Source: Acrocarpospora corrugata (lineage in GTDB: Bacteria; Actinomycetota; Actinomycetes; Streptosporangiales; Streptosporangiaceae). Taken from it: 64,000 nucleotides of DNA. Made by a program: the position numbers and the translations under genes. The notes under the pieces are model-generated. The model was not told the DNA's origin. It did not search any database and saw nothing but the letters and a program-made list of their open reading frames with translations. The stretch lies in the NCBI RefSeq assembly GCF_009687845.1, contig NZ_BLAD01000068.1, forward strand, positions 1 through 64,000, in the 5' to 3' direction. Below, one piece after another: positions 41,911-64,000 of this stretch; position 1 is the stretch's first letter; each line of letters starts with the position of its first letter.

Positions 41911-42603
41911 ATGAGCGATCCGAAGGCAGTGGTGCTGCTCAGCGGTGGTTTGGATTCCGCGACGGTACTTGCAATCGCCCGCAGCAAGGGGTTCGATCCG
42001 TACGCGTTGAGCTTCCGCTACGGCCAACGACACTCCGTTGAGTTGGAGGCAGCCACACGCGTTGCCGCAGCACTCGGTGCACGCCGCCATGTGATCGCCG
42101 ACATTGACTTGCGGGTGTTCGGTGGTTCCGCTCTGACCGACCCTGCGATCGCGGTGCCCCATCACGACAGCGCCGATGAACTCAGCTCGGGGATCCCGGT
42201 GACGTACGTGCCGGCCCGCAACACGATCTTCCTGTCATTTGCCTTGGCATGGGCGGAGACGCTCGGTGCCTCGGACATATTCATTGGCGTAAACGCAATG
42301 GATTACAGCGGCTATCCGGACTGCCGGCGAGAGTACATCGAGGCATATCAGCGGATGGCGAACCTTGCCACCAAGGCGGGCGTCGAGGGGACCCAACAAC
42401 TGGAGATCCATATGCCGCTGGTGGATCTGACTAAGGCGCAGACGATCTCCTACGGCCTGAAGCTAGGCGTGGACTACGGCCTGACCCACAGTTGCTACGA
42501 TCCAATTGGCGACCGCGCATGCGGAACGTGTGATTCGTGCTTGCTGCGCATCCGGGGCTTCGCAGTGCTCGGGATGACGGACCCGGTGATGGCGACGGTG
42601 TGA
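41911..42603 (+). CDS. queC: 7-cyano-7-deazaguanine (preQ0) synthase
   Basis: The 230 aa enzyme makes preQ0 from 7-carboxy-7-deazaguanine using ATP and ammonia. It has the PP-loop SGGLDS (11-16), a conserved [24 protein letters not shown], and a C-terminal zinc site from C-x(n)-CGTCDSC. ATG 41911 has GAGGG 7 bases upstream. It is the first gene of an eight-gene plus-strand operon whose members overlap by 1 to 4 bases. No queuosine genes (queA, queG, tgt) are near, and the neighbours below show that preQ0 is meant for DNA. Confidence 0.95.
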
Positions 42604-43244
42604 TCGTGTACCGAGTCAAGGAGATCTTCTACACGCTCCAGGGCGAGGGTAGCCATGCAGGCCGGCCATCGGTGTTCTGTCGGTTCACCAGCTGCAACCT
42701 GTGGACCGGTCGGGAACGGGACCGACATCGGGCCATATGCCAGTTCTGTGACACGGACTTCCTTGGTACGGACGGCCCCGGCGGGGGCCGTTTTCGTTCT
42801 GCGGCCGATCTCGCCGCCGCAGTCGCCAAGGCCTGGCAGGGTGGAGACCATCCACAGGCCCGCCGGTACGTGGTGTGCACGGGTGGAGAACCGCTGCTCC
42901 AACTCGATGCCGCTGCGGTAGAGGCGCTACATGCTGAAGGATTCGAAGTCGCCATTGAAACCAACGGCACCCTTCCTGTGCCGACGGGCATCGATTGGAT
43001 CTGCGTGAGCCCCAAGGCCGGCACAGAGTTGGCCCTGACCGCTGGTGACGACCTGAAGTTGGTGTTCCCGCAGCCCGAGGCAATGCCTGAACGATTCGAG
43101 CACTTGGCCTTCACTAGACTGCTTCTGCAACCGATGGATGGCCCGGATCGAGAGGCGAACACGGCTGCCGCGGTGGCATACTGCCTTGAGCATCCGCAGT
43201 GGCAACTCAGCCTGCAAACGCATAAGTACCTGGGGATCTCGTGA
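42600..43244 (+). CDS. queE: 7-carboxy-7-deazaguanine synthase (radical SAM)
   Basis: The 214 aa enzyme rearranges 6-carboxytetrahydropterin to 7-carboxy-7-deazaguanine. Its cluster-binding cysteines are spaced C-x14-C-x2-C (Cys32, 47, 50), the unusual long spacing of the QueE family rather than C-x3-C-x2-[11 protein letters not shown] binds SAM. Start GTG 42600 overlaps the queC stop by 4 bases; GTG 42606 is the alternative. Confidence 0.93.
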
Positions 43245-43600
43245 TGGAGATCTTCCGCGAGTTCACCTTTGAAGCCGCGCACCGGCTGCCCCAGGTGCCA
43301 GAGGGACACAAGTGTGCCCGGCTGCACGGCCACTCCTATCGGCTTGAGGTCCGCATCTCTGGCGCTGTTGACCCGTCCATGGGTTGGATCATGGACTTCG
43401 GTGATCTGAAAGCTGCCGTCAACCCGGTAATCGTGCAATTAGATCATTATTACCTCAATGAGGTTCCTGGCTTAGAGAATCCAACCAGTGAAAACCTGGC
43501 CCGCTGGGTGTGGGATCGGCTGGCCGATGCATTGCCGCTGTCAGCGATCGTGGTCCGCGAGACGTGCACCTCTGGTTGTGTGTATAGGGGTGAGCGATGA
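43244..43600 (+). CDS. queD: 6-carboxy-5,6,7,8-tetrahydropterin synthase
   Basis: The 118 aa QueD has the zinc ligands His13, His28 and His30 (AAHRLP and RLHGHSY) and the catalytic Cys24 in GHKC. The C-terminal [11 protein letters not shown] is the pterin-binding segment with a catalytic Glu. It converts 7,8-dihydroneopterin triphosphate to the QueE substrate. ATG 43244 overlaps the queE stop by one base; GTG 43241 would add one residue. Confidence 0.95.
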
Positions 43601-44397
43601 GTCTCATCGACGTGCAGGCCTTACCCGACCAACGGGGTATCGCTCTTGGCACAGTCGGGGTGGAAGGGCTGCGCTACCCCGTACTGGTGTGCGACGGTCA
43701 GGGCGGCAAACGCGACACGGTTGCCACCATGACCATGACCGTCGACGTAGCTGCCGAGGTTAAGGGTGCGCACCTGTCTAGGTTCGTGGAGGTGTTGCAC
43801 ACCTGGCGAGACCAACTTGACACCGCAAGCATGCTGCTCATGGCGGACGATCTGCGCCAACGCATGGGCTCACGCCACGCGACCGTAGCGGCTAGCTTCG
43901 TTTACTTCCTGGAACGCCAGGCACCAGTCACCGGTGTCGCCTCGTTCATGGACTATCCCTGCACCATCACTGCCGTCGTCGGCTTCGACACCAATGTGCT
44001 GCAACTGCGCACCGAAATAGCGGTCACCAGCGTCTGCCCATGCAGCAAGGCGATCAGCGACTACGGAGCGCACAACCAACGTGGCCGGGTCACCATCGAC
44101 GTCAACCTCGAAGATCCAGGCGGCCTGTGGTTCGATGAACTGATCAACATTGGCGAACGCTGCGGCTCGTCGCCGCTCTACGCGCTGCTGAAGCGTCCGG
44201 ACGAGCGACACGTGACCATGGCCGCATACGAACACCCAGTATTCGTTGAGGATATGGCTCGGAATGTCGTCATCGCCCTGCGTGATGACCCGCGGATCAC
44301 CTGCGGCACCGTCCGGGTGGTTAACGACGAGAGTATCCACAACCACGCCGCGTTCGCCCAGGCCTCATGGCCCATACAAGATGGCCGTCTGCGATGA
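43597..44397 (+). CDS. folE2: GTP cyclohydrolase IB
   Basis: The 266 aa protein is of the type IB (FolE2) family, not type IA. Diagnostic segments are [19 protein letters not shown] in the middle, with the metal/active-site Cys, and a C-terminal [16 protein letters not shown]. It supplies dihydroneopterin triphosphate for QueD. Having its own cyclohydrolase makes the island independent of host folate synthesis for substrate. Start ATG 43597 overlaps queD by 4 bases. Confidence 0.93.
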
Positions 44398-45320
44398 CGG
44401 CCACCAGCGGCGGCCCGCTACACCTCGTTGTGACCTGCGCCAACCGCAAACGCCACGCCATCCCCGTAGACCTTCACCTGCGTGCGGTCACCCAGCGACG
44501 GCCGGCGGCCCGGTTCGCCGCTTGGACTGCCCGCCTCGACGATAGCGATAGCGGCCGTTACTCGGCTGTCGACCTCTATGCTGGCGAACACTGGCAGATC
44601 GCCCGCGCCCTCACCCAGACGCCAGCGGCCAAGACGGCGCAGCTGTGGATCGCTTCGGCTGGCTACGGACTCATCCCGGCCGACGCCGCGATTTGCGCCT
44701 ACGCCGCTACCTTCTCTGTCCCAGCATCCGACGCGGTCGGTGTCTCCGTGAGTGAGGTCGCCGACTGGTGGCACCGCCTCAGCACCTGGGCAGGGCCCGC
44801 TCCCGACCAGCCACGCAGCTTCGCCGCGCTCGCCGCACGCGACCCCGATGCCACTGTGATCGCGGTGTTGTCCGCTGCCTATCAGCGTGCCTGTGGCGAT
44901 GACCTACTCGCCGCCGCCGATCTCCTCGACTCCGACGCGCTGTCGGTGGTCGGGCCGTCTAACGGACACCCACTACTCGTCGACATGCTGGTACCGGTTA
45001 CCGCGACGCTGCAACACACCGTCGGCGGCAGCCTGCAAGCCCTCAACGTCCGCACCACCCAATACCTCCTCGAGCACGGCGCCGGTACGCGCCGCACTGC
45101 CCTGCGGTACGCCGCAGCGGCTGCGGCACCCGATAACCCGCCGACGCCTCGCGCGACAGGCCAGCGCATGTCGGATGCCGAGCTCGTCGCCTACATCCAC
45201 GGTCATGCTCACAACAGCGCGACCCAGTTGCTGCGGCAACTGCGGGACACCGGCCGCTCCTGCGAACAGCGCCGCTTCGCGCAACTGCACCGCGACGTAT
45301 GTGGGGCGCATCGACCATGA
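44394..45320 (+). CDS. dpdC: DpdC-type 7-deazaguanine DNA-modification protein
   Basis: The 308 aa protein has an N-terminal YaaA/DUF6884-like region: LHLVVTCANRKRHAIP, YAGEHWQIARAL and WIASAGYGLIPADAAICAYA. That pattern, and its place between the preQ0 genes and dpdB/dpdA, fit DpdC. In Salmonella, DpdC is needed to turn the inserted preQ0 base into the amido form (ADG). The C-terminal half (about 170-308) is less conserved in character. It overlaps folE2 and dpdB1 by 4 bases each. Confidence 0.75.
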   Translation: MTATSGGPLHLVVTCANRKRHAIPVDLHLRAVTQRRPAARFAAWTARLDDSDSGRYSAVDLYAGEHWQIARALTQTPAAKTAQLWIASAGYGLIPADAAICAYAATFSVPASDAVGVSVSEVADWWHRLSTWAGPAPDQPRSFAALAARDPDATVIAVLSAAYQRACGDDLLAAADLLDSDALSVVGPSNGHPLLVDMLVPVTATLQHTVGGSLQALNVRTTQYLLEHGAGTRRTALRYAAAAAAPDNPPTPRATGQRMSDAELVAYIHGHAHNSATQLLRQLRDTGRSCEQRRFAQLHRDVCGAHRP

Positions 45321-46447
45321 CTGAATCGGCCCCCGAATTGAAGCGGCGAGCGCTGCGTATCGAGCAGCTCGATGGCCACCCGCTGTATTTGTTCACACTG
45401 ACTGCCGCCGAAGTTCTCCAGGTCGCGGACGTGTCGCGAGTCAGCCGCGACGAGGCCAGTCAATTGATCGGCTACCAGCGGCCTGAGGTCCGCAGCCACG
45501 TCCAAGACATCATCGACTACCTCAACAGCGGCCCGGTCGTTTTCCCTAACGCGATCATCCTCGCCCTGTCATCTCGGGCCACTTTCACGGGGAGCCGCGG
45601 GCCGCGCGCCAACGACGGCCTAGCCACCGCTGGTATCTTGACCCTGCCCCTAGCCGCCTACGGAGAGCCGAAACTGGCGTGGATCGTCGACGGGCAGCAA
45701 CGCGCGATCGCCTTGTCCCGCTCCGAGCGCAGCAACTTTCCAGTCCCGGTCACCGCGTTTGTCGCCGACACGGTCAGCCTGCAACGCGACCAGTTCGTGC
45801 GCGTTAACAACACCCGACCGTTGCCACCGAGCCTGGTCACTGAACTGCTTCCCGAGGTCGACGCGCCGCTGCCCCAGCGACTCAGCGCGCGGAAGGCGCC
45901 GTCTCTGGTATGTGACCGGCTCAACACCGACGAGCGGTCCCCGTTCTACAAGATGATCAAGCGGGCATCTACCCGCGCTGAGGCTGCCCACACTGCTGTC
46001 ATCGCGGACAATAGTATCGTGTCGATGATCAAGAAGAGCCTGGCCAACGGTTGCCTGTACCCGTTTCGGAACCTGACGAGCAACGAAATCGACATCGACG
46101 GCATCCACAAGGCGCTGTGCACGTACTGGAGCGCCGTGCGCGACGTGTTCCCCGACGCCTGGGGTAAGCCAGCCACCGAAAGCCGACTCATGCACGGTGC
46201 TGGCATCCGCGCGATGGGCCAGTTGATGGACCGCGTACTCGTCATCGTCGACCCCCGTGGTCCGGATGCTCCCATCGAGATCCGCAAGCATCTCGACCTT
46301 ATTGCCCCGTACTGCCGGTGGACGTCCGGTACCTGGGACCAGATCAACTTGGCCTGGGACGCCGTGGAAAATGTCGACGGCCAAATCCAGACGCTGTCGA
46401 ACTACCTCATCCGCGTTTATCGCGACGTCAGGGCGTCACAGTCGTGA
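45317..46447 (+). CDS. dpdB: DpdB-like DGQHR-domain protein, copy 1
   Basis: The 376 aa protein carries the DGQQR motif at 125-129, preceded by the VSRVSRDEASQLIGYQRPEV segment typical of DndB/DpdB (ParB/Srx-like) proteins, and followed by VNNTRPLPPSL. DpdB works with DpdA to insert preQ0 into DNA, and the fold is a ParB-like nucleotidase. It is immediately upstream of dpdA with a 4-base overlap. A second homologue lies downstream of dpdA, so the two could act together or on different targets. Confidence 0.82.
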   Translation: MTESAPELKRRALRIEQLDGHPLYLFTLTAAEVLQVADVSRVSRDEASQLIGYQRPEVRSHVQDIIDYLNSGPVVFPNAIILALSSRATFTGSRGPRANDGLATAGILTLPLAAYGEPKLAWIVDGQQRAIALSRSERSNFPVPVTAFVADTVSLQRDQFVRVNNTRPLPPSLVTELLPEVDAPLPQRLSARKAPSLVCDRLNTDERSPFYKMIKRASTRAEAAHTAVIADNSIVSMIKKSLANGCLYPFRNLTSNEIDIDGIHKALCTYWSAVRDVFPDAWGKPATESRLMHGAGIRAMGQLMDRVLVIVDPRGPDAPIEIRKHLDLIAPYCRWTSGTWDQINLAWDAVENVDGQIQTLSNYLIRVYRDVRASQS

Positions 46448-47682
46448 GGTTCTTCTTTCCTGACAGCCAGGACCAGGTTGACCCTGGCTTCGATTTCGTC
46501 ACCGAGGAACGCGACCCCCTACGGGTGCGGCAGCGTGATGACCTCTACGCCCACGAAGTCCTGGATCCGCCGCCCTTCCACGGCCTATTGGTGTCGAAAT
46601 CTATCGTGGACGGCTACTCCGACGGGAGCGCCGGTAAGTACACGGGTGCTCAACGGCGCCGCCTTTATCGGGAAGGTGCGCGCGAGTTCTTCCGTCTCGA
46701 CCACGCCAGCGGACCGCTACGGATCATGGGTGACTGCGGGGCGTTCTCGTACGTCAAGGAGACCTATCCGCCCTATAGCGTCGATGATGTAATCGACTTC
46801 TATGACGGGTGCGGCTTCGACTACGGCATCGCCGTTGACCACGTCATCTTCCAATACGAACCAGAGATCAGCCGCGACGACGAACGAGCCATTGAATGGG
46901 TACGTCGCCAGGACATTACTCTCACCCTGGCCAACGACTTCTGGAAACGGTGCAAAGACCGCCGCGTCCGCTTCTCCCCGCTCGGAGTCGCCCAAGGGTG
47001 GAGCCCACAGTCCTACGCAGATGCGGTGGTCGCCCTGCAACGCATCGGCTATCGGCGCATCGCTATGGGCGGCATGGTGCCGCTGAAGACCCGCGAGATC
47101 CTCGCCTGCCTGCGTGCCGTCGATGACATACGGCGATCCGACACCCAACTACATCTTCTAGGCATCAGCCGCTGTGACGACATCCCCACCTTCGCCACTC
47201 ATGGAGTCACCAGTTTCGACAGTACCTCGCCGTTCCGGCAAGCGTTCAAGGACGACCGCGACAACTACTACACCTTCGATAGCACCTACATCGCTCTGCG
47301 CGTGCCACAGGTTGACGGCTACGTTAAGCTGCGCAAACGGATTGCCTCCGGTGAAGTAGACCAACGGCAGGCAATCATCCTAGAACGCTCCGCCCTGCGG
47401 CTGCTGCGCGACTACGACGCCGGCATTGCGTCTCTCGATGACACCTTGGCGGCGCTGCAGAACTACAGCCAAGTCTGGGACGGTAAGACCGACCGCAGTG
47501 CCGCCTACCGCCGGACGCTGCAAGATAGACCCTGGCGAGACTGCACCTGCACGCTGTGCCAGACCTTGGGTATCGAGATCGCCGTATTTCGCGGCACTGA
47601 ACGCAACAAACGGCGCGGCTTCCACAACCTGCACATCTTCAGGAACCGGTTGCGCGCCCAACTCGGAGAGGACCTCACGTGA
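46444..47682 (+). CDS. dpdA: DpdA, DNA guanine transglycosylase
   Basis: The 412 aa protein is a tRNA-guanine transglycosylase homologue that acts on DNA. DCGAF (97-101) is the substrate-binding Asp region, IAMGGMVPLK (206-215) is the TGT beta-strand loop, and SFDSTSPFR at 257-265 provides the probable nucleophile Asp259. A C-terminal zinc site is C-x-C-x2-C (Cys367, 369, 372) with His394. It lacks the PUA and tRNA-binding parts of archaeal TGTs. GTG 46444 overlaps the dpdB1 stop by 4 bases. Confidence 0.9.
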   Translation: MRFFFPDSQDQVDPGFDFVTEERDPLRVRQRDDLYAHEVLDPPPFHGLLVSKSIVDGYSDGSAGKYTGAQRRRLYREGAREFFRLDHASGPLRIMGDCGAFSYVKETYPPYSVDDVIDFYDGCGFDYGIAVDHVIFQYEPEISRDDERAIEWVRRQDITLTLANDFWKRCKDRRVRFSPLGVAQGWSPQSYADAVVALQRIGYRRIAMGGMVPLKTREILACLRAVDDIRRSDTQLHLLGISRCDDIPTFATHGVTSFDSTSPFRQAFKDDRDNYYTFDSTYIALRVPQVDGYVKLRKRIASGEVDQRQAIILERSALRLLRDYDAGIASLDDTLAALQNYSQVWDGKTDRSAAYRRTLQDRPWRDCTCTLCQTLGIEIAVFRGTERNKRRGFHNLHIFRNRLRAQLGEDLT

Positions 47683-48851
47683 CGCGGACACCCGCCACGC
47701 CGCCTAAGGCCAGCCGCCAACGGCGTACGTTGCGCTTGCCAGCCTTGGAGATCCAGCAAGGACCCAATCGGCGCGTCTATACCTTCGCCATCGACGGCAA
47801 ACACGTCGCGGACATCGCGACTGTGTCCCGTATCCGTCGCGACGAGGCCACCGAACTGCACGGATACCAACGGCCGGAGAGCCAGGCCCACGTCGCGGCG
47901 ATCCGCCGTTATCTCGACACTGACCCCAGCCCGCTGCTGCCCAACGCGATCGTGGTCGCCTTCGACGAGCGGGTCCGCTTCTATGCAGACGAGTCCACCG
48001 ATGAACGGCCTGCGTTCGTACGCTCCGGAACGATCATCATTCCTGTTGTCATCGACGGGGAGGAGGCGGACAAGCCGGGGTTCATTGTGGACGGCCAGCA
48101 GCGCAGCGCCGCCATTCGTGACTCCAAGCTCGATGAATTCCCGATCTGCGTCACCGCGTTCATTACCGATACTCATGCTGACCAGCGATCCCAGTTCATC
48201 CTTGTCAACTCCACCAAGGCATTGCCGAAGGGCTTGATTCACGAGCTTCTCCCCGGGGCGGCCGGTGCGCTCCCGGCGCCGCTCATGGCACGCCAATTGC
48301 CGGCAACCCTCGTTGAACGACTGAACTTTTCAACGACGTCGCCGCTGCGTCGCATGATCCAGACGCCGACCAATCCGAATGGGCTGATCAAAGATAACTC
48401 GATACTGCGAATGTTGGAGAATAGCCTGAGTAACGGAGCTCTTTATCCCTATCGTGGCGACGGTAGAGGCCCGAACTTCGGCTGTATGATATCAATCCTG
48501 GATAACTTCTGGGGTGCGGTGGCCGAGGTGTTCCCGGACGCGTGGAACAAGTCGCCGCGGCGGTCGCGGCTTATGCACGGGGTCGGCATCATGGGCATGG
48601 GCGCGCTCATGGACGAGATTTCGCACGCGCGCGGCAGCGCTTATGAGATCGTGAGTGCGGCAGAGTTCGCCGTCGATCTTAAAGTGATCGCCGATGACTG
48701 TCACTGGACCGAAGGATCTTGGCCCTTCGCGGATGGGCCGCGCGCATGGAATGGAGTGGAGAACACCTCGCGCGACATTGCCCGCTTGCAGGACTACCTC
48801 ATCTCCTGTTACGAAGTCAGGGTAGGCCGTAGGCGCGGCGGAACTCGATAA
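47679..48851 (+). CDS. DpdB-like DGQHR-domain protein, copy 2
   Basis: The 390 aa protein has the same architecture as copy 1: VSRIRRDEATELHGYQRPES, DGQQR at 138-142, and VNSTKALPKGL. Similarity is clear but far from identity, so the duplication is old or the copies came separately. GTG 47679 overlaps the dpdA stop by 4 bases, and it ends the plus-strand operon. Both copies keep the motif, so neither looks inactive. I do not assign a symbol because which copy is the DpdB equivalent is not known. Confidence 0.8.
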   Translation: MTRTPATPPKASRQRRTLRLPALEIQQGPNRRVYTFAIDGKHVADIATVSRIRRDEATELHGYQRPESQAHVAAIRRYLDTDPSPLLPNAIVVAFDERVRFYADESTDERPAFVRSGTIIIPVVIDGEEADKPGFIVDGQQRSAAIRDSKLDEFPICVTAFITDTHADQRSQFILVNSTKALPKGLIHELLPGAAGALPAPLMARQLPATLVERLNFSTTSPLRRMIQTPTNPNGLIKDNSILRMLENSLSNGALYPYRGDGRGPNFGCMISILDNFWGAVAEVFPDAWNKSPRRSRLMHGVGIMGMGALMDEISHARGSAYEIVSAAEFAVDLKVIADDCHWTEGSWPFADGPRAWNGVENTSRDIARLQDYLISCYEVRVGRRRGGTR

Positions 48852-49411: not shown

Positions 49412-49693
49412 CTAGAGGCTGACCCCGCAGTGTGGACAGTAGCGACCATATCTAATATCTTTTGCGGCGGCGCCGAACCACCGCTCACAGTTTGAGCAAT
49501 GTATTATGGCCTTATGGCACCCTGGACAGAAATGGCTATCGGGAAGAGGGCCTTCGTCATCTTCGCGCGCGTTTTGCCCGGAGTCACTGCCAATGACCGC
49601 GTTGACGAATAGGTCAAAAAATTCACCGGCCGATGGCAACGCTTGTGATTCGGTGTCGTGCTTGAGCCCACAATGCGGGCAGTGAATTTTCAT
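49412..49693 (-). CDS. Small zinc-ribbon protein A
   Basis: The 93 aa protein has four C-x2-C pairs: CPHC (5-8), CPGC, CSNC and CPHC near the C-terminus, so it should form two zinc ribbons. An acidic, helical middle (about 20-55) separates the first pair from the others. It is paralogous in layout to zinc-ribbon B just upstream. It is the last gene of a three-gene minus-strand set downstream of dpdD. Lower local GC than the neighbours suggests foreign origin. Function unknown. Confidence 0.72.
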   Translation of the reverse strand: MKIHCPHCGLKHDTESQALPSAGEFFDLFVNAVIGSDSGQNAREDDEGPLPDSHFCPGCHKAIIHCSNCERWFGAAAKDIRYGRYCPHCGVSL

Positions 49694-49701
49694 ATGAGAC
49701 C

Positions 49702-50004
49702 CTATGTGGTGAACTGTGCATTACAGTAGGGACATTTATGCGGACTTCCCGCAGCTTCTCTTCCGACGCCGACCCATCGCCCGCAGGATATTTTTGGACA
49801 GCGAAAATTTAGTTCCCGACAGGTCGGGCATCGACTCATCTCGACCGAGCTTCCCGGCCTGTAATCACCCATACGGACATTCGTGATGGTGTTTCGGAAA
49901 AGGTGAAAGAGTTTATCCGCCTCTTCCAAAAAAGACTCTTCCTGGGATGACCGGGTGTTCCAGTATCGCCGTCCGCAGTGCCCGCATTCCACTCTCGCCG
50001 GCAT
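49702..50004 (-). CDS. Small zinc-ribbon protein B
   Basis: The 100 aa protein has CGHC (7-10), CPTC, C-x4-C and CPYC, the same order and spacing as protein A, including RCPKISCGRWV matching HCSNCERWF. Between the first and second pairs both have a predicted helix with FxxLFxNxI-like hydrophobics (DKLFHLFRNTI here, EFFDLFVNAVI in A). GGAAGG precedes ATG 50004. Eight cysteines point to a nucleic-acid or protein-binding double ribbon. Confidence 0.72.
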   Translation of the reverse strand: MPARVECGHCGRRYWNTRSSQEESFLEEADKLFHLFRNTITNVRMGDYRPGSSVEMSRCPTCRELNFRCPKISCGRWVGVGREAAGSPHKCPYCNAQFTT

Positions 50005-50007
50005 GGA

Positions 50008-50445
50008 TCAGGCCTTCCTTCGACCCCTTGGAGGTTTCTTCGCCGTGGGCAACGGTCCTCGTGGACCGCTATTGGTCAGCCCGCTCACCACCGCGGCACC
50101 GACAGATCCGATGATGACTGCGCTTTCGAGGATCTGGGGACCTTTCTCAGCGACCGCATCGACTGCCCCGCCGACCGTATCGGCAGCGCTGGAGATCGCC
50201 CCGGACAATCGATCCTTCAAGGTCGGAGGCGGTTCCGGGCTGAGTTCGTCGTAAACCGCGAGTGTGACGGTCCCCAGAATGGGGACACCGTGCGCTTCGC
50301 CGACCTTGTCGATGGCGTGGCGAACCGCGGCACGCGCCACCGTTTCTTCTAGGGATCGTTCCAAAACTCCCCCAAAGTGACTTATTGTTGATGATGATAC
50401 GAACGTTCGCCAAGGTTGGCAAGTGAGCTCAGTGCTCCATTCCAT
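50008..50445 (-). CDS. Hypothetical protein with a C-terminal membrane helix
   Basis: The 145 aa frame has a helical N-domain (VARAAVRHAIDKVGEAHGV), a short LGTVTLAVYDELSPEP region, an amphipathic Ala/Gly segment, and a hydrophobic glycine-rich helix SAVIIGSVGAAVVSGL near the C-terminus with a basic tail. The first 26 residues look poorly coding, so the true start may be TTG 50364, next to GGGGGAG. It ends 3 bases before zinc-ribbon B starts. I recognise no family. Confidence 0.55.
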   Translation of the reverse strand: MEWSTELTCQPWRTFVSSSTISHFGGVLERSLEETVARAAVRHAIDKVGEAHGVPILGTVTLAVYDELSPEPPPTLKDRLSGAISSAADTVGGAVDAVAEKGPQILESAVIIGSVGAAVVSGLTNSGPRGPLPTAKKPPRGRRKA

Positions 50446-50639
50446 TGAGAATCCGGCTATTTTGGCCCAACCATCTTACTTTTATGGACGTCCGCAAAAG
50501 ACCCCCATCCAGGTCGTACTCACGCAGGCAGGCCGGGAACTCCGATCTCCGGATTCTGGCGAATTCCGACTTAGAGCAAAGCCCCCTTCTCGACGGGCAA
50601 CAGCAGAAGCCGCATCGAGTTCGCCCCCTGCCTCCATCG

Positions 50640-50769: not shown

Positions 50770-50796
50770 ATCATCGACCGGCCACCACCGGGCTGG

Positions 50797-56500: not shown

Positions 56501-58036
56501 GGTGAAGCCCTCAGCGGACAACATCTGGCGGTAGAGCCGGTTGACCAGGTCAAGGTTGTCGCAGAACGCGAATACGCGGTTACCGTAGGCTGACAGGGGG
56601 GTCGGCTGCGGATCGAGAACCCGGCGCAATAACATCAAGGACTGGATCGTGGTAGACAGCAGGGCGGTCTGCTGGCCCGGATCGCCGCGCAGCACAACCT
56701 GGTACTCTCGCCCGCGCGGCTTCATGTGGTTCTGTTCCGGTTCGACGGTGACCACGGTGCCGTCAGCGAGCCCGCACAGCGTCTCGAAGAAGCGGTCCGC
56801 GTTCGCCAGCGTCGCGCTCAGGCCCACCCAGGTGGTGGGTCGGCCGAGCAGGTGCCGCCACCGCCGCAGCAGGTAGGCGACTTGGGCACCGTCGGTGCCC
56901 TCGTAGGTATGCACTTCGTCGAGCAGGACCAGCCCGGGGCGAGTGCGCGCGGTCGGCCCGACCCCGAACACGTGCATGCTCCACCCATCGCTGAGGGAGC
57001 GGTTGAGCATCTCAGTGGTGGTGAACAGAAGGTCGGGCGGGCGGTTCTGCATGGATTTGCGGGTCAGGGCGACCTCGTCGTCACCGACCACGCCGCCGCA
57101 GTGGGCACAGGTCAGTCGTTCGCGCTGTCGATCCCTCGGGGCGTCATAGTCGGAGAAGAGCCACACGAGGTCGCCCCCGCAACGGCCGTCGCCAGCCAGG
57201 GCGGGGCAAGTGAGAAACGGACAGACCCAGCCGGTGGCCGTTTTGCGCCAGGCCCGGTTGGGTGCGCTCCTCGCGTCGATCTTGTTTGGAGTATTGCCGA
57301 AGTAAGCGCCGATGCGGATCGGCCGGCCGCCTGCCTTGCGGAGCCGCCGTGTCTCGTCCAGGGCCGACGCGAGTTGGTCCTTGAGCAGTTCATTGCGCGG
57401 ATAAATCGCGACGACGCCAACGCCACGCGCAGACACCGGCCGGGTGGCGAGATAGGTCAGCGCGGGCAGGTAGAAGGCTAATGTCTTACCGTTGCCGGTG
57501 CCCGCGCTGACAACCACACCACGATCGCGGCCGGCCATCGCGGCGAACACCTCAATGGTCGAGTCCAGTTGGAAAGTTGATAACTTGCGCCCGCCAAGGA
57601 TCTGCCGTGCGGCCTCGACCTGGGCCGTAGAGACCTGGTGGACCGTCAACCGTGCGGCGACCGTGTCCGGGGTGAGGTCGCGTTCGGGAAACCATCGGGG
57701 TTCGTGGCGGAAGCGAAAGTCGGCCACCAGAGTGGGGGCGGCCTGCCAGGGCCGGTTGGGGAACTGTTGGCGTAGATGCGCCATGAGCCGCATGGTCTCG
57801 GCCATGCGGGTGCGGTACTCCTTCGGCCAACGTCGGTCGAGTTCGAAGACCAGATTGTGCTGCAGGAGTTGTTCGAGAAGGTCGCGAGGATCGTGTGACG
57901 GCGCCGCCGCGGCGATCGTTTCAATGAGCCGGTCTTCCGGCCAACTCTCCTCGGTCAACCCCCAAACCAAGTAGCGGGCCTCCACGTCTTCAAGGTCGTC
58001 GAGCACACGGAGGAGGAGATTCGAAAGATGGTTCAC
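53585..58036 (-). CDS. dpdJ: DpdJ, large SF2 helicase
   Basis: The 1483 aa protein has Walker A SAGTGNGKT (about 178-185), Walker B as DEVH (373-376), and helicase C motifs TTSSLEVGFDD and FLQRRGRAGR (about 590-625). Five cysteines between about 272 and 313 (CPFLTC...CGG...CAHCGG) form a zinc insert between motifs I and II. The C-terminal 700 residues look MrfA/DUF1998-like. The gene overlaps dpdI by 4 bases at GTG 58036; the frame stays open 26 codons farther upstream but lies inside dpdI. It probably remodels or scans DNA for DpdK. Confidence 0.85.
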   Translation of the reverse strand: MNHLSNLLLRVLDDLEDVEARYLVWGLTEESWPEDRLIETIAAAAPSHDPRDLLEQLLQHNLVFELDRRWPKEYRTRMAETMRLMAHLRQQFPNRPWQAAPTLVADFRFRHEPRWFPERDLTPDTVAARLTVHQVSTAQVEAARQILGGRKLSTFQLDSTIEVFAAMAGRDRGVVVSAGTGNGKTLAFYLPALTYLATRPVSARGVGVVAIYPRNELLKDQLASALDETRRLRKAGGRPIRIGAYFGNTPNKIDARSAPNRAWRKTATGWVCPFLTCPALAGDGRCGGDLVWLFSDYDAPRDRQRERLTCAHCGGVVGDDEVALTRKSMQNRPPDLLFTTTEMLNRSLSDGWSMHVFGVGPTARTRPGLVLLDEVHTYEGTDGAQVAYLLRRWRHLLGRPTTWVGLSATLANADRFFETLCGLADGTVVTVEPEQNHMKPRGREYQVVLRGDPGQQTALLSTTIQSLMLLRRVLDPQPTPLSAYGNRVFAFCDNLDLVNRLYRQMLSAEGFTEMGRPRRNGVALASLRMSRAGQRFGPVVDWGQRDADGQQWWMPELLGFDDRGLAIGRTSSQDTGVRVGADIVVTTSSLEVGFDDPTVGAVLQHKAPRDVASFLQRRGRAGRIQTQRPWTVVVLSDFGRDRNAYLDYETLLAPALPEKRLPLGNQSVRKMQAAMCLIDWAAHRLDVTVRVGGRSMRKVFIQPDSAHAQLRQEVGVRLTQVLNGGPERQDLMTFIGSSLQLTAEEVEAVCWEQPRSLLLDAVPTARRRLLSRWAAYENGEVNPGREEWVNDSPLPEFIPKALFSDLCLPEVAINPPSDYDEAARESIAVHMALNELAPGKVTMRWAVERGQGLWIEPASDGAAVALEEGLARSGQIIGEVPSDHESVPLVRPLITAPQVPERAVQPSSNGRLHWQVRRQAPNDGIEVTRPRSGPLVGNVTSVRAYLHTGRGALRNWRYATQASASVVRRGGGRQQMTNSFTWHGQPAAVGYEATVDAQVITVAIPQTLAAFGLHRSPRRLHQLRRDFFVDQLRARLHALRVDTFLSRNIAEAIVAASAVAVRDNTDPAQLSMLSAAQWRRLVADLLSEGVIGLDDDEDDDEDHDLAPRHQQLLDVLIDGPVAHVIAESIGLLVAEPNDAWLPWLRTRYVHTMAAAWQAAAQQLCPDFDTDLDSIVDVDPVADGPTATFVLSDATIGGGGMIEALTSRISDDPRQFDYLVVAALQPSDLEEVDRSLRNTLGLLTNEPEIADAAHQFRTATRDRLTTWQDLLALLTAHGVSPAHVTVTTLASRVFRAKSGPESDLLLRDCLARWEDIEARAGFAIDHRSICMALAADPHIRDRLVLAVPEGASEGETWAQSVLQGLLWPRAEARRAQSLVASNRFVNEGPMTERTLVLDALPDPVDNVDIDDPQWTRRLTERIAASGRCRLVSGTNDRARLKQALQHLVTQPIELGWLHVHPHVEAASRRDGFLAVDVSLEESPQ

Positions 58037-58797
58037 CACTTGCGGACCTCGTAACCGTCGCCGTGGTCGTCCGTGTCGAGCCACTCGCGTACCGCCGCGG
58101 TGAGCATCGACCAAGGTGCGCCACGTTCACTGGCGGCCGCTTCGACAAAAGCCTTGATTTCTGCAGGCAGTTCGGCCAGGCGCTGGCTGACCTCGTGGCG
58201 GGTGTCCTCCCACTCTTCCGCGTACTGTCTCCAGCGGTCGACAAAAGCCGGAATCTCGGCAACAGGCCCGGTGAAAGATCGTGACAGGGATGCCTGGACC
58301 TTTCGAATGCGTGCCTGCAGTGACTCGTTGCCGGGCATCGTCGCGATGGGCCGGTGGAGATCGGCAGGTGTGAGGCGGGCACGTTCCGCCTCTGCTGCGC
58401 GGATCAAGGCTTGGTCGATGAGCTTGGCGGTGGTCTCAGCCGCCTTGAGGGCGTCCTGAACTGCTCCGCTGCGCAGCCGCTCGGTCAGGTCTTGGCTCGG
58501 GTCAGCGGCCTGTGTCGCAGCCCTGCGCAGGTTCGGGATCGCCTTGGACGCCTGCGACGGCACCGATGGCCGGACATACCCCAAGCCGAGGGACGCGAGT
58601 TCGACGCCGATCCGCATACAGGAGGCAAGCCGGGCCGTTAGGGCCTCCGCGCGGGTGCAGGCCGCAGTAATGGCGCTCAATTCGGCTTCGGTCTTTTTCC
58701 GGTCGGCTCGGTCGGCGAGGGCCAGGAGAGCATGATTGGCGCGTTCGGCCAGCGAACCCTGCTCAGGGTCAGCAGCGGGACAGGACGGCTCGATCAT
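58033..58797 (-). CDS. dpdI: DpdI-like coiled-coil protein
   Basis: The 254 aa protein is almost wholly alpha-helical and charged, with heptad patterns in about 15-70 (ADRKKTEAELSAITAACTR) and 105-150. It has no enzymatic motif. Position between dpdH and dpdJ, with 4-base overlaps on both sides, matches dpdI in the known gene order. A structural or bridging role between the ATPase and the helicase is inference. Confidence 0.68.
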   Translation of the reverse strand: MIEPSCPAADPEQGSLAERANHALLALADRADRKKTEAELSAITAACTRAEALTARLASCMRIGVELASLGLGYVRPSVPSQASKAIPNLRRAATQAADPSQDLTERLRSGAVQDALKAAETTAKLIDQALIRAAEAERARLTPADLHRPIATMPGNESLQARIRKVQASLSRSFTGPVAEIPAFVDRWRQYAEEWEDTRHEVSQRLAELPAEIKAFVEAAASERGAPWSMLTAAVREWLDTDDHGDGYEVRKW

Positions 58798-61703
58798 TGC
58801 TTGGTCAGCCCTTCGAGAGTGTCCGCGAGCGCCCGCAGCGCTCGTTGGAGGCGGGCCCGATCGTAAGTGTCCGATAGGCCGCTCGGGGACGGTGCCGTGT
58901 CGCGCAGCGAGCCCAGAAGGTGGTCACATAAACGCCAGTAGTTGAGCAGGTCGGTGAGCATGGGGAGGGGATCGGATGCCAGATCCCACAACGACGCGGC
59001 GTTTGACGTGGACCGGGCGAGTCGCGTGAGTCGACGCAGCGCGCTCAGTTGCTCGCTGGTGACCCGGACCCGCAACCGATCGTAAGCGTCCTTAGCGTCC
59101 GGGCGGGCCAGCGCGGACGCTCGGTGCGCCTGCTCAACGAAGCTATCCATCATCGTCAAAGTGGCGTGAAGATCCTCGCCCTCGGCGACGTACCCGCCGA
59201 TCTGTCCCAGGACGGATCGGATCGGCGTCCACAGGGCGTCGGCTGCGCTGCTTTGCCTGTCGTGGAATCCGCGTACGTTGATGCGAGCCCCCGCCTCGTC
59301 GTGGAGTTCGACGGGCAGTTGGGTGAGTCGCGCGTACGGCAGCAGATTGGTCAGGACGGCGCCAGCGTCGAAGATGGATGCAGCACCGCTGCCCTTGCGC
59401 TGGGTGAGGCTGTCTCGCACGACGGTCAGAGCTGAGGTGCGGTATCGCTCCACCCCGTCGAAGAACTTTACGATCCCCGGGTTGATGTCGTTAGGACGCC
59501 TGGGCCGAATTATGACAGCGAGGGCTTCGGCTGGTGACTCCACATTTCGACTGTCCACCGTACTCAGCACGCCCAAGACCGCAAGGGCCGACGAGACTCC
59601 GGACGTCGCCTCGTGTCTGGCGTGCTCAACGATCTCAGCTTCGAGTTTGGCCAGCCGGTGTTGCATCTCGAAGAACCAGCGGCCACTGTTCGGACCTGCC
59701 AGGTTGCCCGAGGTGGCGGCAAGAACCCCTTTGAGGAGGACGCCGTCACGATCGTTACTGGAGAACTTAATGGTGGCGCTCTCCGGTGGTGTGCTGCCGC
59801 CGCCGGCTGCGTTCTCCAAGATCACATGACTGGGTTTGATCGTTACCGGTCCCACTAAGATGTTGCTGGCCGCGCGCTTGACGTTCAGCCCCTTGGGACC
59901 GGTTTGTAGGCGGGCGGCCAGTGCGTCGAGAATCCATCGGCGGATCTTTTGGGCGGTCGATGCCCCCATTCGCCCGCCGCTGACCCACAGGTCTATCTCG
60001 GACATCGGTGCCAGTGGTATCGGTTCAGCCGCGGTGTGTGCCGTACTGTGGTCCTCGGCGAGATCGGTGAGGTGCACGCCGAGGATGTCGGCGATGCGCT
60101 GCACCTGGCCGTCGGCGGCCGGTGGTTTGGCCGCGTAGAACGCACGCAGGCTGATTTCGGCTGGCGAGGTATTTGATTGCCGGGTTATCGCGTCGCGTAG
60201 TTCGACGGGCACTGTCATCCGGGTGGGCGCGAGGCCTGCGGCGAAGCGTGCGGAAGGGAACTCGCCGGGCTTGGACAACTCGGCCTCGGCGACCTCGAGC
60301 GGTGCACGGATGACCTCCCGGAGGATGTTGCGAGGGTCAAAGTCCTCCGGGCTGGCGAGCGCTACCAGGTGATCGACGGCGGCGGCGTTGAAGGGGAACA
60401 ACCCGTGTCCTTCACTGGTGACCCCGAACGCCGGGTGACATCGATCCTGGTGCACGCAATCGGTGCATTTGTTGGGCGTTGGCTCGCCCGAGTGAGCGGC
60501 TAAAGATAGTCCGTGGCGACCGACACGGCCAGCGTTGAGGTATCTGCCGACGAAGGACCGCAGGTCCCCGGTGCTGACCTGGGTGCGGTCCACATCCATG
60601 GTGTAGTGCACGCCCCGCTCGGCGAACGTGGTATACCGGTCGTCGAGATACCCGGAGGTGACGGCGATCACGGCCCGGATGGGGCACAGATCCGCGCGTG
60701 CCGGCAGTGTCAAAGCCTGGGCGAGTTGAGCGTCGATGCCGTGCAGTAGGACCAGGTCCTCGACGAACAGAACTAGCTCTTGGCCGCGCCTGGCCAACTC
60801 GCCCCGGACGTCTTCGAAGACGTGGAGAAGGTCGGTGGAGTTGCCGGTGAAGACCTCTGCTGTGGCGCGAGGAAGGTAGTAGTCCAGGATGGCCGCCGCC
60901 GCCGTGCGCACGCTCCGGTTGGACACGAAGTCCCGAATCTTGCGCTGGAAATCTGCACCGGCATCGAGAAACGCCTCAGGACTGATCTTGAGATCGGCCT
61001 CGCCGAGGTGAAGGTCTTCGGAGTTGACGTCGGCGCCGGGTTCGTGGCCGTTCTTGGCGAGTTTCGCGATCCGTTCGATCGGCCCACCAGACCGCGACAG
61101 TTGCTGCTTGAAGGTGTAGTCGCCGACCAGCCGTGCGACGCGTTGACGCATGTCGACAAGATCTGCTCCGGTCAGGTTCTGGATGACCGGTGTGTCGTCG
61201 AACGCGATTAGCCGGTGTAGGTGGTTAAGCAGCGCCAGCATCGCTTCCTGCACCGTGGTCATCCGTGACGCAGCCCGCGCCAGGCTGGCTCGCAGGTTAT
61301 CCGCGGAGGGGGTGTCGATGCCGTCGAGTACGTGTTCGATGATGCGACGTAGAGACGTGTTGCGCTTTTCGATGTAGACGAAGTGCCAGTTGTCGCGACG
61401 CGGTGCGTGAACGCGCAGCCACCGGACGAAGTGGCTCTTTCCCGTGCCGGCGCGTCCGGTGATGAACCGGATATGTGGTTCGTTCGAGACGAGCGGCTGA
61501 CACAGGTCCGCGAGCACCTCCGCTTCGGTAACAGGTTCGCGGGTTCCTGCTTTTGTGCGCCGAGCCAGCGGAACGGACTGGTGCACGGCATCGAACACTG
61601 CGTCGGCGGCTGGATCTCCAAACTCCAGTCCGCCGGCGTCGACCTGCGCCACCACCTGGATCTCGGGCCGCGACCAGCATGGGGGGATCGATGTCGGCGT
61701 CAC
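58794..61703 (-). CDS. dpdH: DpdH, P-loop ATPase
   Basis: The 969 aa protein has Walker A GRAGTGKS (83-90) in FITGRAGTGKSHFVRWL, and a Walker B-like LVLFVEDLVLL around residue 350. CTDCVHQDRCHPAFG near 440-455 is a likely metal site. A long helical C-terminus follows. The frame is open to 61850, but GTG 61703 overlaps the dpdG stop by 4 bases and begins the conserved part. It is the STAND/AAA-like ATPase of the restriction set. Confidence 0.8.
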   Translation of the reverse strand: MTPTSIPPCWSRPEIQVVAQVDAGGLEFGDPAADAVFDAVHQSVPLARRTKAGTREPVTEAEVLADLCQPLVSNEPHIRFITGRAGTGKSHFVRWLRVHAPRRDNWHFVYIEKRNTSLRRIIEHVLDGIDTPSADNLRASLARAASRMTTVQEAMLALLNHLHRLIAFDDTPVIQNLTGADLVDMRQRVARLVGDYTFKQQLSRSGGPIERIAKLAKNGHEPGADVNSEDLHLGEADLKISPEAFLDAGADFQRKIRDFVSNRSVRTAAAAILDYYLPRATAEVFTGNSTDLLHVFEDVRGELARRGQELVLFVEDLVLLHGIDAQLAQALTLPARADLCPIRAVIAVTSGYLDDRYTTFAERGVHYTMDVDRTQVSTGDLRSFVGRYLNAGRVGRHGLSLAAHSGEPTPNKCTDCVHQDRCHPAFGVTSEGHGLFPFNAAAVDHLVALASPEDFDPRNILREVIRAPLEVAEAELSKPGEFPSARFAAGLAPTRMTVPVELRDAITRQSNTSPAEISLRAFYAAKPPAADGQVQRIADILGVHLTDLAEDHSTAHTAAEPIPLAPMSEIDLWVSGGRMGASTAQKIRRWILDALAARLQTGPKGLNVKRAASNILVGPVTIKPSHVILENAAGGGSTPPESATIKFSSNDRDGVLLKGVLAATSGNLAGPNSGRWFFEMQHRLAKLEAEIVEHARHEATSGVSSALAVLGVLSTVDSRNVESPAEALAVIIRPRRPNDINPGIVKFFDGVERYRTSALTVVRDSLTQRKGSGAASIFDAGAVLTNLLPYARLTQLPVELHDEAGARINVRGFHDRQSSAADALWTPIRSVLGQIGGYVAEGEDLHATLTMMDSFVEQAHRASALARPDAKDAYDRLRVRVTSEQLSALRRLTRLARSTSNAASLWDLASDPLPMLTDLLNYWRLCDHLLGSLRDTAPSPSGLSDTYDRARLQRALRALADTLEGLTKQ

Positions 61704-62659
61704 GAGCCCTCCCCCGCCGCGGTCCGCGGGTGCCAGTTGATGTGGGAGATCCGGGTGGGCTCGCCGGCCACACCCAGCGTGACCACCATGGTGTCGGTGT
61801 CGCTCTCGGGCGGCGGAAGGGTAAGGTGTCCGGCCGCTTCTAACTGGCACAAAGACATCGACAGCCCCGGAGATAGTTCCTGACTGTCATCTGCCTTCCA
61901 TAGCGACCGGGGTCCGCCGTCGCTGATCGGTAACCTCTCACCGCATTCCGCAACGAACTCGTCAGCCCGGAATCGCTTCTGCGGCAGGTCGACCAAGTCC
62001 TCCAGCAGAGCCCTGCTGGCGTCGGCGACGAGCGACCGGACGCTGATCGGCTGGGCTAGGCCCAGGTAGGGAGCCCACCGGCACAACGGCAGGAACTGCG
62101 TGTAGTTGGTCACCGGCCAGTCACGCTTGTGCGCCCCGAACCACTGCGTCTGTGCGTCGGCGAATCGTCGGCCAGCGCCGGTTTCGAACTCAAACGGCCG
62201 CAGCGGCTCTCGGGCGGCGAACAGGACCGCCAACGCGTTGACCAGATCCCCGACCCGGGCGTCGCCGTCGTTGCTGACGTCCGTCGCCGCGATGCGCCAG
62301 ATCTGCGACCGCAGCTGCCGGCTGAATGACGCAGCCGTGACCGCCTGCGCGGTGCGCCAGTGGCCGAGCGCGACCTCGGTCGCCGTCACGTCCACGCCGT
62401 CCAGCGCGACGAACCCGAGCGAGATCAGTGCGCTCAGCGACCGCTCGGCGATCAGCTGGCCACTCGCCGCTGTGTTGTCGACATCGGGGTCCCCGTCCTT
62501 GTCGCTGTCCAGCGGCCTCATCGCTTCGGTGAGGCCCACGGGGGCCACCAACGCCAGCAACTCTGGTTTCGGGCACCGGGCCTTCCGGTGGGCCAACACG
62601 GCTCGAAGCAGGTATCGCATCGCCTCGGGCAAGATATCGGGGGGGGTGAGTAACGGCAT
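61700..62659 (-). CDS. dpdG: DpdG-like protein
   Basis: The 319 aa protein starts MPLLTPPDILPEAMRYLLRA, with a possible winged-helix-like N-domain (1-90), then a helical core with FGAHKRDWPVTNYTQFLPLC and LSPGLSMSLCQLEAAGHL, which looks like a second wHTH. No enzymatic motif is seen. Position between dpdF and dpdH is as expected. ATG 62659 follows the dpdF stop by one base. Confidence 0.72.
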   Translation of the reverse strand: MPLLTPPDILPEAMRYLLRAVLAHRKARCPKPELLALVAPVGLTEAMRPLDSDKDGDPDVDNTAASGQLIAERSLSALISLGFVALDGVDVTATEVALGHWRTAQAVTAASFSRQLRSQIWRIAATDVSNDGDARVGDLVNALAVLFAAREPLRPFEFETGAGRRFADAQTQWFGAHKRDWPVTNYTQFLPLCRWAPYLGLAQPISVRSLVADASRALLEDLVDLPQKRFRADEFVAECGERLPISDGGPRSLWKADDSQELSPGLSMSLCQLEAAGHLTLPPPESDTDTMVVTLGVAGEPTRISHINWHPRTAAGEGS

Positions 62660-62660
62660 A

Positions 62661-64000
62661 TCAAATTTTCCTCAACAGATCTTCGATCTCGTAGCTGGGC
62701 GTCCACGCTTCGTGCAGAAGTTGTCTCGAATTCGCCGGATCACGTCGCGTTCTGGGTGTCAGCACGATTCCGAGTGGCTGGCGGGCAAGGCGTGACAACG
62801 CCCGGGCCAGTATTGTGTCGCCGAGGGATGGGTCAACCACGAGCAGCGTAGGCACTCGCCACGTTGCATTCGACCGCCCGGACCACGCGTGAACATCCTC
62901 AACCCACCAAGGCCCCGTTGCCCGGGTGCGCCAGGCGACGCCCTTACGGTCTGCGGTGACGATGACGATGACGCCTCTACGGAGAAGACGGTCAACCAGC
63001 GTCTGCAGCGCGCTGTCGTTGGAGGGTCCCAGACGTACGCTCATCCTGCCGTCGGCCGACAGGCAGCGCAGGTCGTCGATCGCTTCTGCGTGCGACTCGC
63101 CCGCCAGCAGCGTGGGGTGGCCCGGGGCTGGGGCGGGCAGTCTGCCGGTGCGGCGGCAGTGTGGGCAGCCCCCGCAGCCCACCGACACCGGAAATTGGTT
63201 CCCGACATCATCTTCCAGTCGATAGCGGCGGGCCAGGTAGTGGTTGACGCACTCGTCAATCCCTTGAATCAGGTCTGTCGCGGTGGTGAGCGCGGCGGCG
63301 GCGGCGTCGCGGGTCTCCCGCTGACCGGCGGCGAGGCGCGCACGGAACGCTTCCGCGTCGTCGAGGTCACTGTGCAGGATTTCGACGGTGGCTGCCGCCC
63401 GCTGCGCGTCGAAGAGCGCCTCCACCTCGTCGTCGTCGGCGTCGACGGGCACGTCATGCGGTACCGGCCAACTCCGCCGGATCATTCCCGCTCGGTCCAT
63501 CGCCGCCAGGGTCTGCACGTTCCAGTAGATGTTGGCGCGGCTGGATGGATATGTAACTCCGGCATGCTCCGCCCGCAGATCGACGGTGAGTTCGTCTCCC
63601 GACCACTGTCCGTGTCGCATGCTCTGCCAGCGTAGCCACGCGAGGTCGGGACCAATGAGGCGCTCACGCGCGATGTCATTCGCCACTCGCATGTCCACAG
63701 GGGTCCACAGGACCAAAGCCGTCGCGGCGCGACCGTCGCGACCGGACCGCCCGACCTCCTGATATAGCCGGTCGACGGACTCGGGCATGCACACGTGGAC
63801 CACGCTGCGGACGTCGTCAATGTCGATGCCGAGCCCGAAAGCGGAGGTTGCCACCACGATATCCAGGTCCTCGTCCGGTGTGCCGTCCAGGCGTAGACCA
63901 CGCACGGCCGCCTGCCGGACGCTGGGCTTGGGGTTGCCGGCGATCTCGGCCACGGCGGCGAACCCTGCATCAGTCAGCCATGAACGCACCGTCCTGGTGT
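62661..64000 (-). CDS. dpdF: DpdF, RecQ-like helicase (partial, runs off window)
   Basis: The C-terminal 446 or so residues are present and the frame is open to the window edge, so the N-terminal helicase domain lies beyond 64000. ATSAFGLGIDIDDVRSVVH and YQEVGRSGRDGR are RecQ motifs V and VI. CGGCPHCRRTGR further on is a zinc-binding segment. The C-terminal 150 residues hold a region (LVVDPSLGDTILARALSRLA) resembling a phosphoribosyltransferase-like or Rossmann fold. A DpdE (SNF2) gene would be expected upstream, outside the window. Confidence 0.85.
   Translation of the reverse strand, partial: TRTVRSWLTDAGFAAVAEIAGNPKPSVRQAAVRGLRLDGTPDEDLDIVVATSAFGLGIDIDDVRSVVHVCMPESVDRLYQEVGRSGRDGRAATALVLWTPVDMRVANDIARERLIGPDLAWLRWQSMRHGQWSGDELTVDLRAEHAGVTYPSSRANIYWNVQTLAAMDRAGMIRRSWPVPHDVPVDADDDEVEALFDAQRAAATVEILHSDLDDAEAFRARLAAGQRETRDAAAAALTTATDLIQGIDECVNHYLARRYRLEDDVGNQFPVSVGCGGCPHCRRTGRLPAPAPGHPTLLAGESHAEAIDDLRCLSADGRMSVRLGPSNDSALQTLVDRLLRRGVIVIVTADRKGVAWRTRATGPWWVEDVHAWSGRSNATWRVPTLLVVDPSLGDTILARALSRLARQPLGIVLTPRTRRDPANSRQLLHEAWTPSYEIEDLLRKI

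Follow-up and report, generated by a model that had tools for sequence, protein, structure and literature searches.

How Dpd restriction proteins discriminate marked from unmarked DNA is, to our knowledge, unsolved: the restriction half of a Dpd island might recognize the modified base itself, its sequence context, or the partner enzymes encoded beside it. This question is raised by a stretch of 64,000 nucleotides from Acrocarpospora corrugata (hereafter the window), which represents bases 1–64000 of the 98,551-base contig NZ_BLAD01000068.1 in a host genome of 9.27 Mb with a completeness rated at 100%. The window carries a Dpd island, whose genes are predicted to place a 7-deazaguanine mark in DNA and to attack DNA lacking it. 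Our alignments and trees show an island of two cassettes, one for modification and one for restriction, which have separate ancestry and have been swapped as whole transcription units at the stop codon of dpdB2, the downstream of two dpdB genes. Islands of this type are already known; of more interest here are the sharply bounded exchanges of cassettes, which recur, and a second DpdB of ancient origin.

An apparently complete Dpd island in two facing operons

The original prediction, made from the letters of the window, proposed a plus-strand operon of eight genes that would suffice to make 7-cyano-7-deazaguanine (preQ0) from GTP and insert it into DNA, with preQ0 or 7-amido-7-deazaguanine (ADG) as the expected base in the host's DNA, faced by a minus-strand restriction operon in the order F-G-H-I-J-K-D. 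Open reading frames (ORFs) and matches to NCBIfam and PADLOC profiles bear out both operons and this order. The modification operon consists of eight overlapping or abutting genes at 41911–48851 (queC-queE-queD-folE2-dpdC-dpdB1-dpdA-dpdB2), which represent only seven kinds because dpdB occurs twice. The restriction operon runs from 64000, where the window holds the 3′ half of dpdF, down to 50797. The gene dpdE, which the prediction had suggested might be found beyond 64 kb, is located outside the window at contig positions 65105–68215 (NF041062, 891 bits; cut-off 500), and the end of the island is therefore at approximately 68.2 kb.

In a comparison with the profiles for DpdA to DpdK, DpdA, both DpdB proteins, DpdD, DpdE, DpdJ and DpdK scored over the cut-off. 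DpdG and DpdH fell just below it, DpdI matched weakly, and the in-window part of DpdF scored 298 bits (NF041063; cut-off 550). DpdC had no NCBIfam match and a strong PADLOC match; of the 34 positions at which at least 93% of 79 DpdC sequences agree, it retained 33. Because its profile match was weak, DpdI, for which there was also no PADLOC match, was assigned from position and relatives; Micromonospora sp. U21 has a 69% identical counterpart at the corresponding place. All four enzymes of preQ0 supply (FolE, QueD, QueE and QueC) are encoded inside one operon. All motifs looked for were intact in QueC, QueE, DpdK, DpdJ, DpdF, DpdE and DpdH, including the SGGLDS loop and zinc cysteines of QueC and the GLGKT and DEAH motifs of DpdE, and every enzyme needed for the predicted route from GTP to ADG in DNA is encoded. 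Hence, as judged from profiles and motifs, the set dpdA to dpdK and the full preQ0 route are all encoded, with dpdI assigned by position, and the whole is very probably best explained as a Dpd restriction-modification island that is complete and belongs to the two-DpdB type.

Separate ancestry of the two cassettes

The modification operon aligned with that of Streptosporangiaceae bacterium NEAU-GS5 (G085, L076) in a 7,044-base block with 83.1% identity (41804–48836). This was the only long alignment between the two islands, and their restriction proteins were 27–36% identical where they could be aligned. The restriction operon aligned from dpdD to dpdE with Micromonospora sp. U21 in a 17,423-base block with 81.1% identity (50846–68240). 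Modification proteins of the window and U21 were 49–81% identical, and folE2 was not detected in U21. Neither relative shares both cassettes with the window.

Trees of DpdA and DpdJ separated the two cassettes in the same way. Forcing the window together with U21 in the DpdA tree cost 241 units of log-likelihood (p of the approximately unbiased test, p-AU, 2e-35), and forcing it together with NEAU-GS5 in the DpdJ tree cost 1183 units (p-AU 3e-9); the pairs for these tests had been chosen beforehand from BLAST. Each tree had 45 rows, comprising the window, 16 family islands, 27 named loci and Enterobacter. The named loci are the best 80 of 178 matches in a contig scan, ranked by similarity to the query; the sample therefore leans to Actinomycetota, and several records occur both among the 80 and among the family islands. 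DpdJ was searched for in 32 of the 80, and L090, L093 and L150, without a DpdJ over the cut-off, were not carried on. The trees also do not contain L096 and L118, which were added later to the pair counts, or G193, G290 and G023 (dpdJ cut by the stretch end).

Recurrent exchange at the dpdB2 stop codon

Among the 45 islands, DpdJ was at most 36% identical in 9 of the 24 pairs whose DpdA proteins were at least 80% identical. These pairs belong to five clusters: the window, NEAU-GS5 and Dactylosporangium roseum; Micromonospora veneta, C31 and U21; three Streptomyces; G216 and G155; and G273, G283 and G276. With L096 and L118 included, the pattern was present in 10 of 25 pairs and six clusters, the sixth being two Saccharothrix with 92% identical DpdA and 33% identical DpdJ. 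For six pairs drawn from the initial five clusters and inspected base by base, the end of homology lay in the range from 15 bases upstream to 35 bases downstream of the dpdB2 stop codon; between the window and D. roseum (75% identity) it lay 72–90 bases upstream of this codon.

The comparison of M. veneta with U21 covers both sides of the exchanged segment. On the left, a stretch of 9,240 bases that ends at the dpdB2 stop codon is 93.2% identical between the two. There follow approximately 18 kb in each, with restriction genes that gave no DNA alignment of at least 150 bases and DpdJ proteins that are 33% identical, and on the right the two are again 90.7% identical over 3,093 bases in a phospholipase D (PLD)-helicase gene. 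Since homologous DNA flanks restriction operons that cannot be aligned, the difference between these islands is, according to the alignments, a replacement in place. The PLD-helicase gene (ResIII, DUF3427) flanks the Micromonospora restriction cassette at L220:13488-16643, with a counterpart in U21, and because of this neighbor the Micromonospora locus may be a defence hot spot.

Lentzea alba encodes a single DpdA and two DpdJ proteins over the cut-off (1660 and 1163 bits). Its second restriction cassette (L244) has eight open genes in order, with scores of 391, 185, 1167, 369, 69, 600 and 770 bits for D, K, J, H, G, F and E, respectively; G and H are under the cut-off, and the gene at the DpdI position has no match. 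No modification gene was found in the surrounding 59.8 kb, searched with the proteins of the window. For the dpdA-linked cassette, PADLOC recognized D, E, G and H, NCBIfam recognized J and tblastn recognized K, and F and I were assigned from ORF position and size only. If both cassettes are expressed, one modification cassette must therefore protect against both.

The exchange of whole cassettes suggests that what the restriction half recognizes is a mark found throughout Dpd systems, rather than its depending on co-evolved contacts with the neighboring modification enzymes. We lean towards a view of Dpd as a plug-in system, in which the restriction operon would read a mark shared by all Dpd modification cassettes, whichever DpdA-DpdB set they encode, whole units would be swapped at the dpdB2 stop codon, and one modification cassette could license two restriction cassettes, as in L. 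alba. Natural swaps with nearly the same modification genes, together with L. alba, provide ready pairs for the question of what the restriction half recognizes. In a limited literature search, we met with no mention of exchanged cassettes or of DpdB falling into two lineages.

An old second DpdB upstream of dpdA

DpdB1 and DpdB2 of the window are 38% identical in a profile alignment, and all 149 aligned DpdB sequences retain the DGQQR motif, in 3 of them as DGQHR. Exactly two dpdB genes, one on either side of dpdA, were present in 65 of 81 loci (the 80 named loci and one contig from a viral collection), and locus L096 has the flanking pair and a third, weak copy. Both copies occurred in all 59 Actinomycetes loci versus 1 of 10 Acidimicrobiia loci. 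Within the family, 17 of the 18 other islands have the dpdB-dpdA-dpdB arrangement; the exception, G290, has queC-queE-queD-dpdA, and no dpdB was found there (L061:16810-19844). G290 also has DUF488 genes upstream of these four genes, and no restriction gene was detected in its 39.5-kb stretch. An IMG/VR contig, L156, contains a Dpd island of host type that includes two DpdB as well as restriction genes; this contig could represent either host DNA or a mobile element.

In a DpdB tree of 71 proteins (a quick LG+G4 tree), 24 upstream copies, from the window and 23 named islands, grouped with the upstream copies of Sinorhizobium and Caulobacter plasmids on one side of a branch with a value of 100 in the Shimodaira-Hasegawa-like approximate likelihood-ratio test. 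None of the downstream copies and none of the 13 single copies fell into this clade, which spans several phyla. Three copies, upstream in L097 and L148 and downstream in L114, were too short to be included, and the program warned of long branches meeting, including the Enterobacter DpdB with the upstream clade. By this tree the upstream DpdB1, on which the original prediction did not remark, is therefore an old, distinct paralog. A simple recent duplication of dpdB was rejected because the upstream copies form one old clade.

NCBI annotation uses the same name for both kinds of DpdB, as seen in the Sinorhizobium and Caulobacter plasmid islands. An excerpt of a preprint (PMC11888242) counts 801 additional dpdB copies and does not describe lineages there, and, in the part consulted, PMC12839542 states that DpdB may be dispensable in certain clusters. 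The stable pair of paralogs represents a second architecture, outside the one-DpdB enteric model, and we infer that DpdB1 and DpdB2 would act jointly with DpdA and not as redundant copies.

DpdA and the use of preQ0

The DpdA protein of the window scored three times the curated DpdA cut-off. Its sole match in the PDB at E ≤ 0.001 was 7ui4, deposited as a DNA-guanine transglycosylase, with residues 1–407 of 412 aligned. Six residues with presumed roles in the enzyme (Asp97, Asp259, Cys367, Cys369, Cys372 and His394) are invariant across ten DpdA. The model for the tRNA-guanine transglycosylase Tgt (TIGR00430) had no match in the whole host genome, and the preQ0 route is hence without an evident tRNA customer. 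These results agree with the earlier placement of the protein in the DpdA clade rather than among tRNA enzymes, and the preQ0 route therefore probably serves DNA. As a purpose of the preQ0 genes, tRNA queuosine was rejected because of the lack of a Tgt match.

Proposed mechanism

FolE2, QueD, QueE and QueC would convert GTP to preQ0, DpdA with its two DpdB-family partners would exchange guanine in DNA for preQ0, and DpdC would convert preQ0 in DNA to ADG; passages of PMC12839542 describe preQ0 insertion and the DpdC step by enzyme family. The DNA of the host would then carry the deoxynucleoside of ADG (dADG), with some of that of preQ0 (dPreQ0). DNA without the mark would be attacked by DpdD to DpdK, with DpdE, DpdF and DpdJ as helicases, DpdK as nuclease and DpdH as ATPase, by analogy with the Salmonella precedent for restriction of such DNA that is reported in a section of PMC11888242.

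Alternative explanations

An apparent swap of cassettes could also arise from fast divergence of the restriction genes or from an assembly chimera. In the window, the junction lies in a 2-kb stretch without informative relatives and is known from the assembly only. However, the restriction cassette is 81% identical to that of Micromonospora sp. U21 over 17.4 kb of DNA; it therefore did not diverge fast, and we rejected fast divergence on this ground. Six clusters show the same pattern, homology between M. veneta and U21 extends to both sides of the exchanged segment, and the 7 pairs of the 45 islands with at least 92% identical DpdA have DpdJ proteins that are either 51–99% or 33% identical. 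We consider divergence or a chimera very improbable. The modification cassette might instead work beside a restriction cassette that is silent or otherwise employed, resulting in marking without restriction. Such a situation would resemble the 12 of 80 named loci without a recognized restriction gene in their stretch (approximately 10 kb, with some stretches cut) and the islands without a restriction operon reported in an excerpt of the GATOR-GC preprint (PMC11888242). Yet none of the eight restriction ORFs is interrupted, the motifs sought in them are intact, and the high DNA identity of the cassette to one from another family suggests that it is kept under selection; marking alone is thus quite unlikely in this host.

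Two further alternatives concern the modification operon. DpdB1 could be a regulator of this operon, a repressor similar to DndB, and not a partner of DpdA, and PF14072 (DndB) does match both DpdB copies. Considering that DpdB1 retains the DGQQR motif and that its position directly upstream of dpdA is kept across phyla, this role is possible and rather unlikely, and joint action of both DpdB proteins with DpdA remains our preferred interpretation. The preQ0 genes, for their part, might supply tRNA queuosine or a deazapurine natural product, with DpdA being a tRNA enzyme. FolE, QueD, QueE and QueC also make preQ0 for these routes, to which the four enzymes are common, and PF01702 (TGT) gave a sub-threshold match to DpdA (18.7 versus 26.3 bits). 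Against this stand the lack of a TIGR00430 match in the genome, the 599 bits of the DpdA model, and the overlap of the preQ0 genes with dpdC-B-A-B in a single operon, with which they move together. A tRNA or natural-product route is exceedingly improbable.

Several observations weigh against exchangeable cassettes that read a shared mark, or against the gene assignments behind them. Identities of DpdA and DpdJ among the 45 islands were weakly correlated (Spearman 0.18, with 6 of 2000 permutations as high), and exchange is therefore not entirely free or is partly taxon-bound. The compatibility of cassettes is deduced from their coexistence, and a cassette that was swapped in, or a second one, might be silent. 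DpdI, DpdG and DpdH are under their NCBIfam cut-offs, and the trees were quick ones without bootstrap. In fold searches with models of DpdB1 and DpdB2, no match to ParB or sulfiredoxin was significant (best E 0.06 and 0.11); at these values a ParB structure topped both lists and sulfiredoxins recurred.

Features and surroundings of the island

The positions of all features are given in Table 1. The profile scores of queC were obtained with a longer ORF starting at 41497.

Table 1. Features of the island and its left flank, with profile scores and motifs.
Feature	Position	Strand	Evidence
Broken serine-recombinase remnant, left of island	38857–40390	+	Split over two ORFs; first without a family match, second with Recombinase and Zn_ribbon_recom
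queC, 7-cyano-7-deazaguanine synthase	41911–42603	+	PF06508 245 bits; TIGR00364 200 bits, cut-off 150
queE, 7-carboxy-7-deazaguanine synthase, Cx14CxxC type	42537–43244	+	TIGR04508 354.6 bits, cut-off 240
queD, 6-carboxytetrahydropterin synthase	43241–43600	+	TIGR03367 113 bits, cut-off 89
folE2, GTP cyclohydrolase IB	43597–44397	+	NF010200 244 bits, cut-off 215
dpdC, predicted preQ0-to-ADG conversion in DNA	44367–45320	+	PADLOC DpdC 212 bits
dpdB1, upstream DpdB paralog	45299–46447	+	NF041060 420 bits, cut-off 300; DGQQR kept
dpdA, DNA-guanine transglycosylase	46444–47682	+	NF041059 599 bits, cut-off 200; PDB 7ui4 426 bits
dpdB2, downstream DpdB; stop codon is the cassette boundary	47679–48851	+	NF041060 458 bits, cut-off 300
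Orphan zinc-ribbon ORF at cassette junction (may not be a gene)	49412–49693	-	Weak zinc-ribbon matches
Second orphan zinc-ribbon ORF, weakly similar to 49412–49693	49702–50004	-	
Orphan ORF, 145 amino acids, no family	50008–50445	-	Weak matches only, in 12 of 337 other genomes
dpdD	50797–53052	-	NF041061 508 bits, cut-off 300
dpdK, phospholipase-D-like	53049–53588	-	NF041068 146 bits, cut-off 100; HKD motif HEKAIGGD
dpdJ, large helicase (start codon probably overextended)	53585–58114	-	NF041067 1611 bits, cut-off 800; GTGNGKT, DEVH
dpdI (assigned by position)	58033–58797	-	NF041066 26 bits, cut-off 150
dpdH, P-loop ATPase	58794–61850	-	NF041065 440.5 bits, cut-off 450; GRAGTGKS
dpdG	61700–62659	-	NF041064 78.7 bits, cut-off 80
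dpdF, RecQ-like helicase	62661–64000 (whole gene, contig 62661–65141)	-	TGSGKS, DEAH

Three small ORFs without informative relatives (49412–50445) occupy the 1.9-kb junction between the cassettes. The first was not seen in other islands by tblastn at 1e-6 and 1e-4; for the second, 338 family genomes returned itself, its neighbor and one weak match with stops, and there was no plasmid match.

DpdA over the cut-off was present in 1 of 5 genomes of the genus, the window's own only, and in 19 of 341 family genomes, including this one. In 2-kb steps, the G+C content is 66–72.5% over bases 1–38000 and 59–67% over 42001–64000. The left flank (34511–37390) is common to two of the four other genus genomes at 86–87% identity, and shared synteny stops at 37390; no clean empty insertion site was found in the genus comparison. 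The N-terminal catalytic part of the serine recombinase was not seen in the remnant. The drop in G+C, the recombinase remnant and the end of synteny fit a horizontal acquisition of the island. To the right of the island, a 96-bp piece (contig 70680–70775; L002:10680-10775) is 92% identical to one in G002 (L215:7206-7613), which is approximately 190 bp from a recombinase remnant resembling that in the window. This piece is possibly the scar of a related element. Farther right, genes for a radical SAM protein, an AdoMet synthetase and a PhyH dioxygenase occur together (contig 74179–77612; L002:14179-17612), perhaps as part of a biosynthetic cluster.

Comparison with known systems

The model of the one-DpdB enteric type is Salmonella Montevideo; the island compared here is that of the Enterobacter cloacae plasmid pPOL9A, which is of the same type. 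It has the same order as the window, with DpdA-DpdB facing DpdD-K-J-(unnamed)-H-G-F-E. Its DpdA is 49% identical to that of the window, and its restriction proteins are 26–41% identical over the aligned parts. In contrast to the window, pPOL9A has a single dpdB, downstream of dpdA, and no preQ0 genes are listed beside its island in the stretch shown, for which the plasmid gene table is incomplete. Like the window, Sinorhizobium americanum and Caulobacter sp. S6 have dpdB-dpdA-dpdB with adjoining queE-queD-queC, in their case on plasmids; the stretches shown contain no gene with the annotation folE2, dpdC or dpdD to dpdK, and that of Caulobacter sp. S6 includes unnamed helicase and AAA genes.

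Among actinobacteria, 333 unique windows with such islands are counted in an excerpt of PMC11888242, where fully intact operons are the commonest composition across all bacteria. The same excerpt lists Kineococcus radiotolerans as a validated case, 7-deazapurine derivatives having been reported in its DNA; this likewise actinobacterial Dpd island is compared with the window's by description. The Dnd/Ssp phosphorothioation systems likewise combine a DNA mark with a separable restriction module, and the DndABCDE module is commonly decoupled from DndFGH according to an excerpt of PMC10853773. Their chemistry and proteins differ from those of Dpd, except for the superfamily that DndB and DpdB share.

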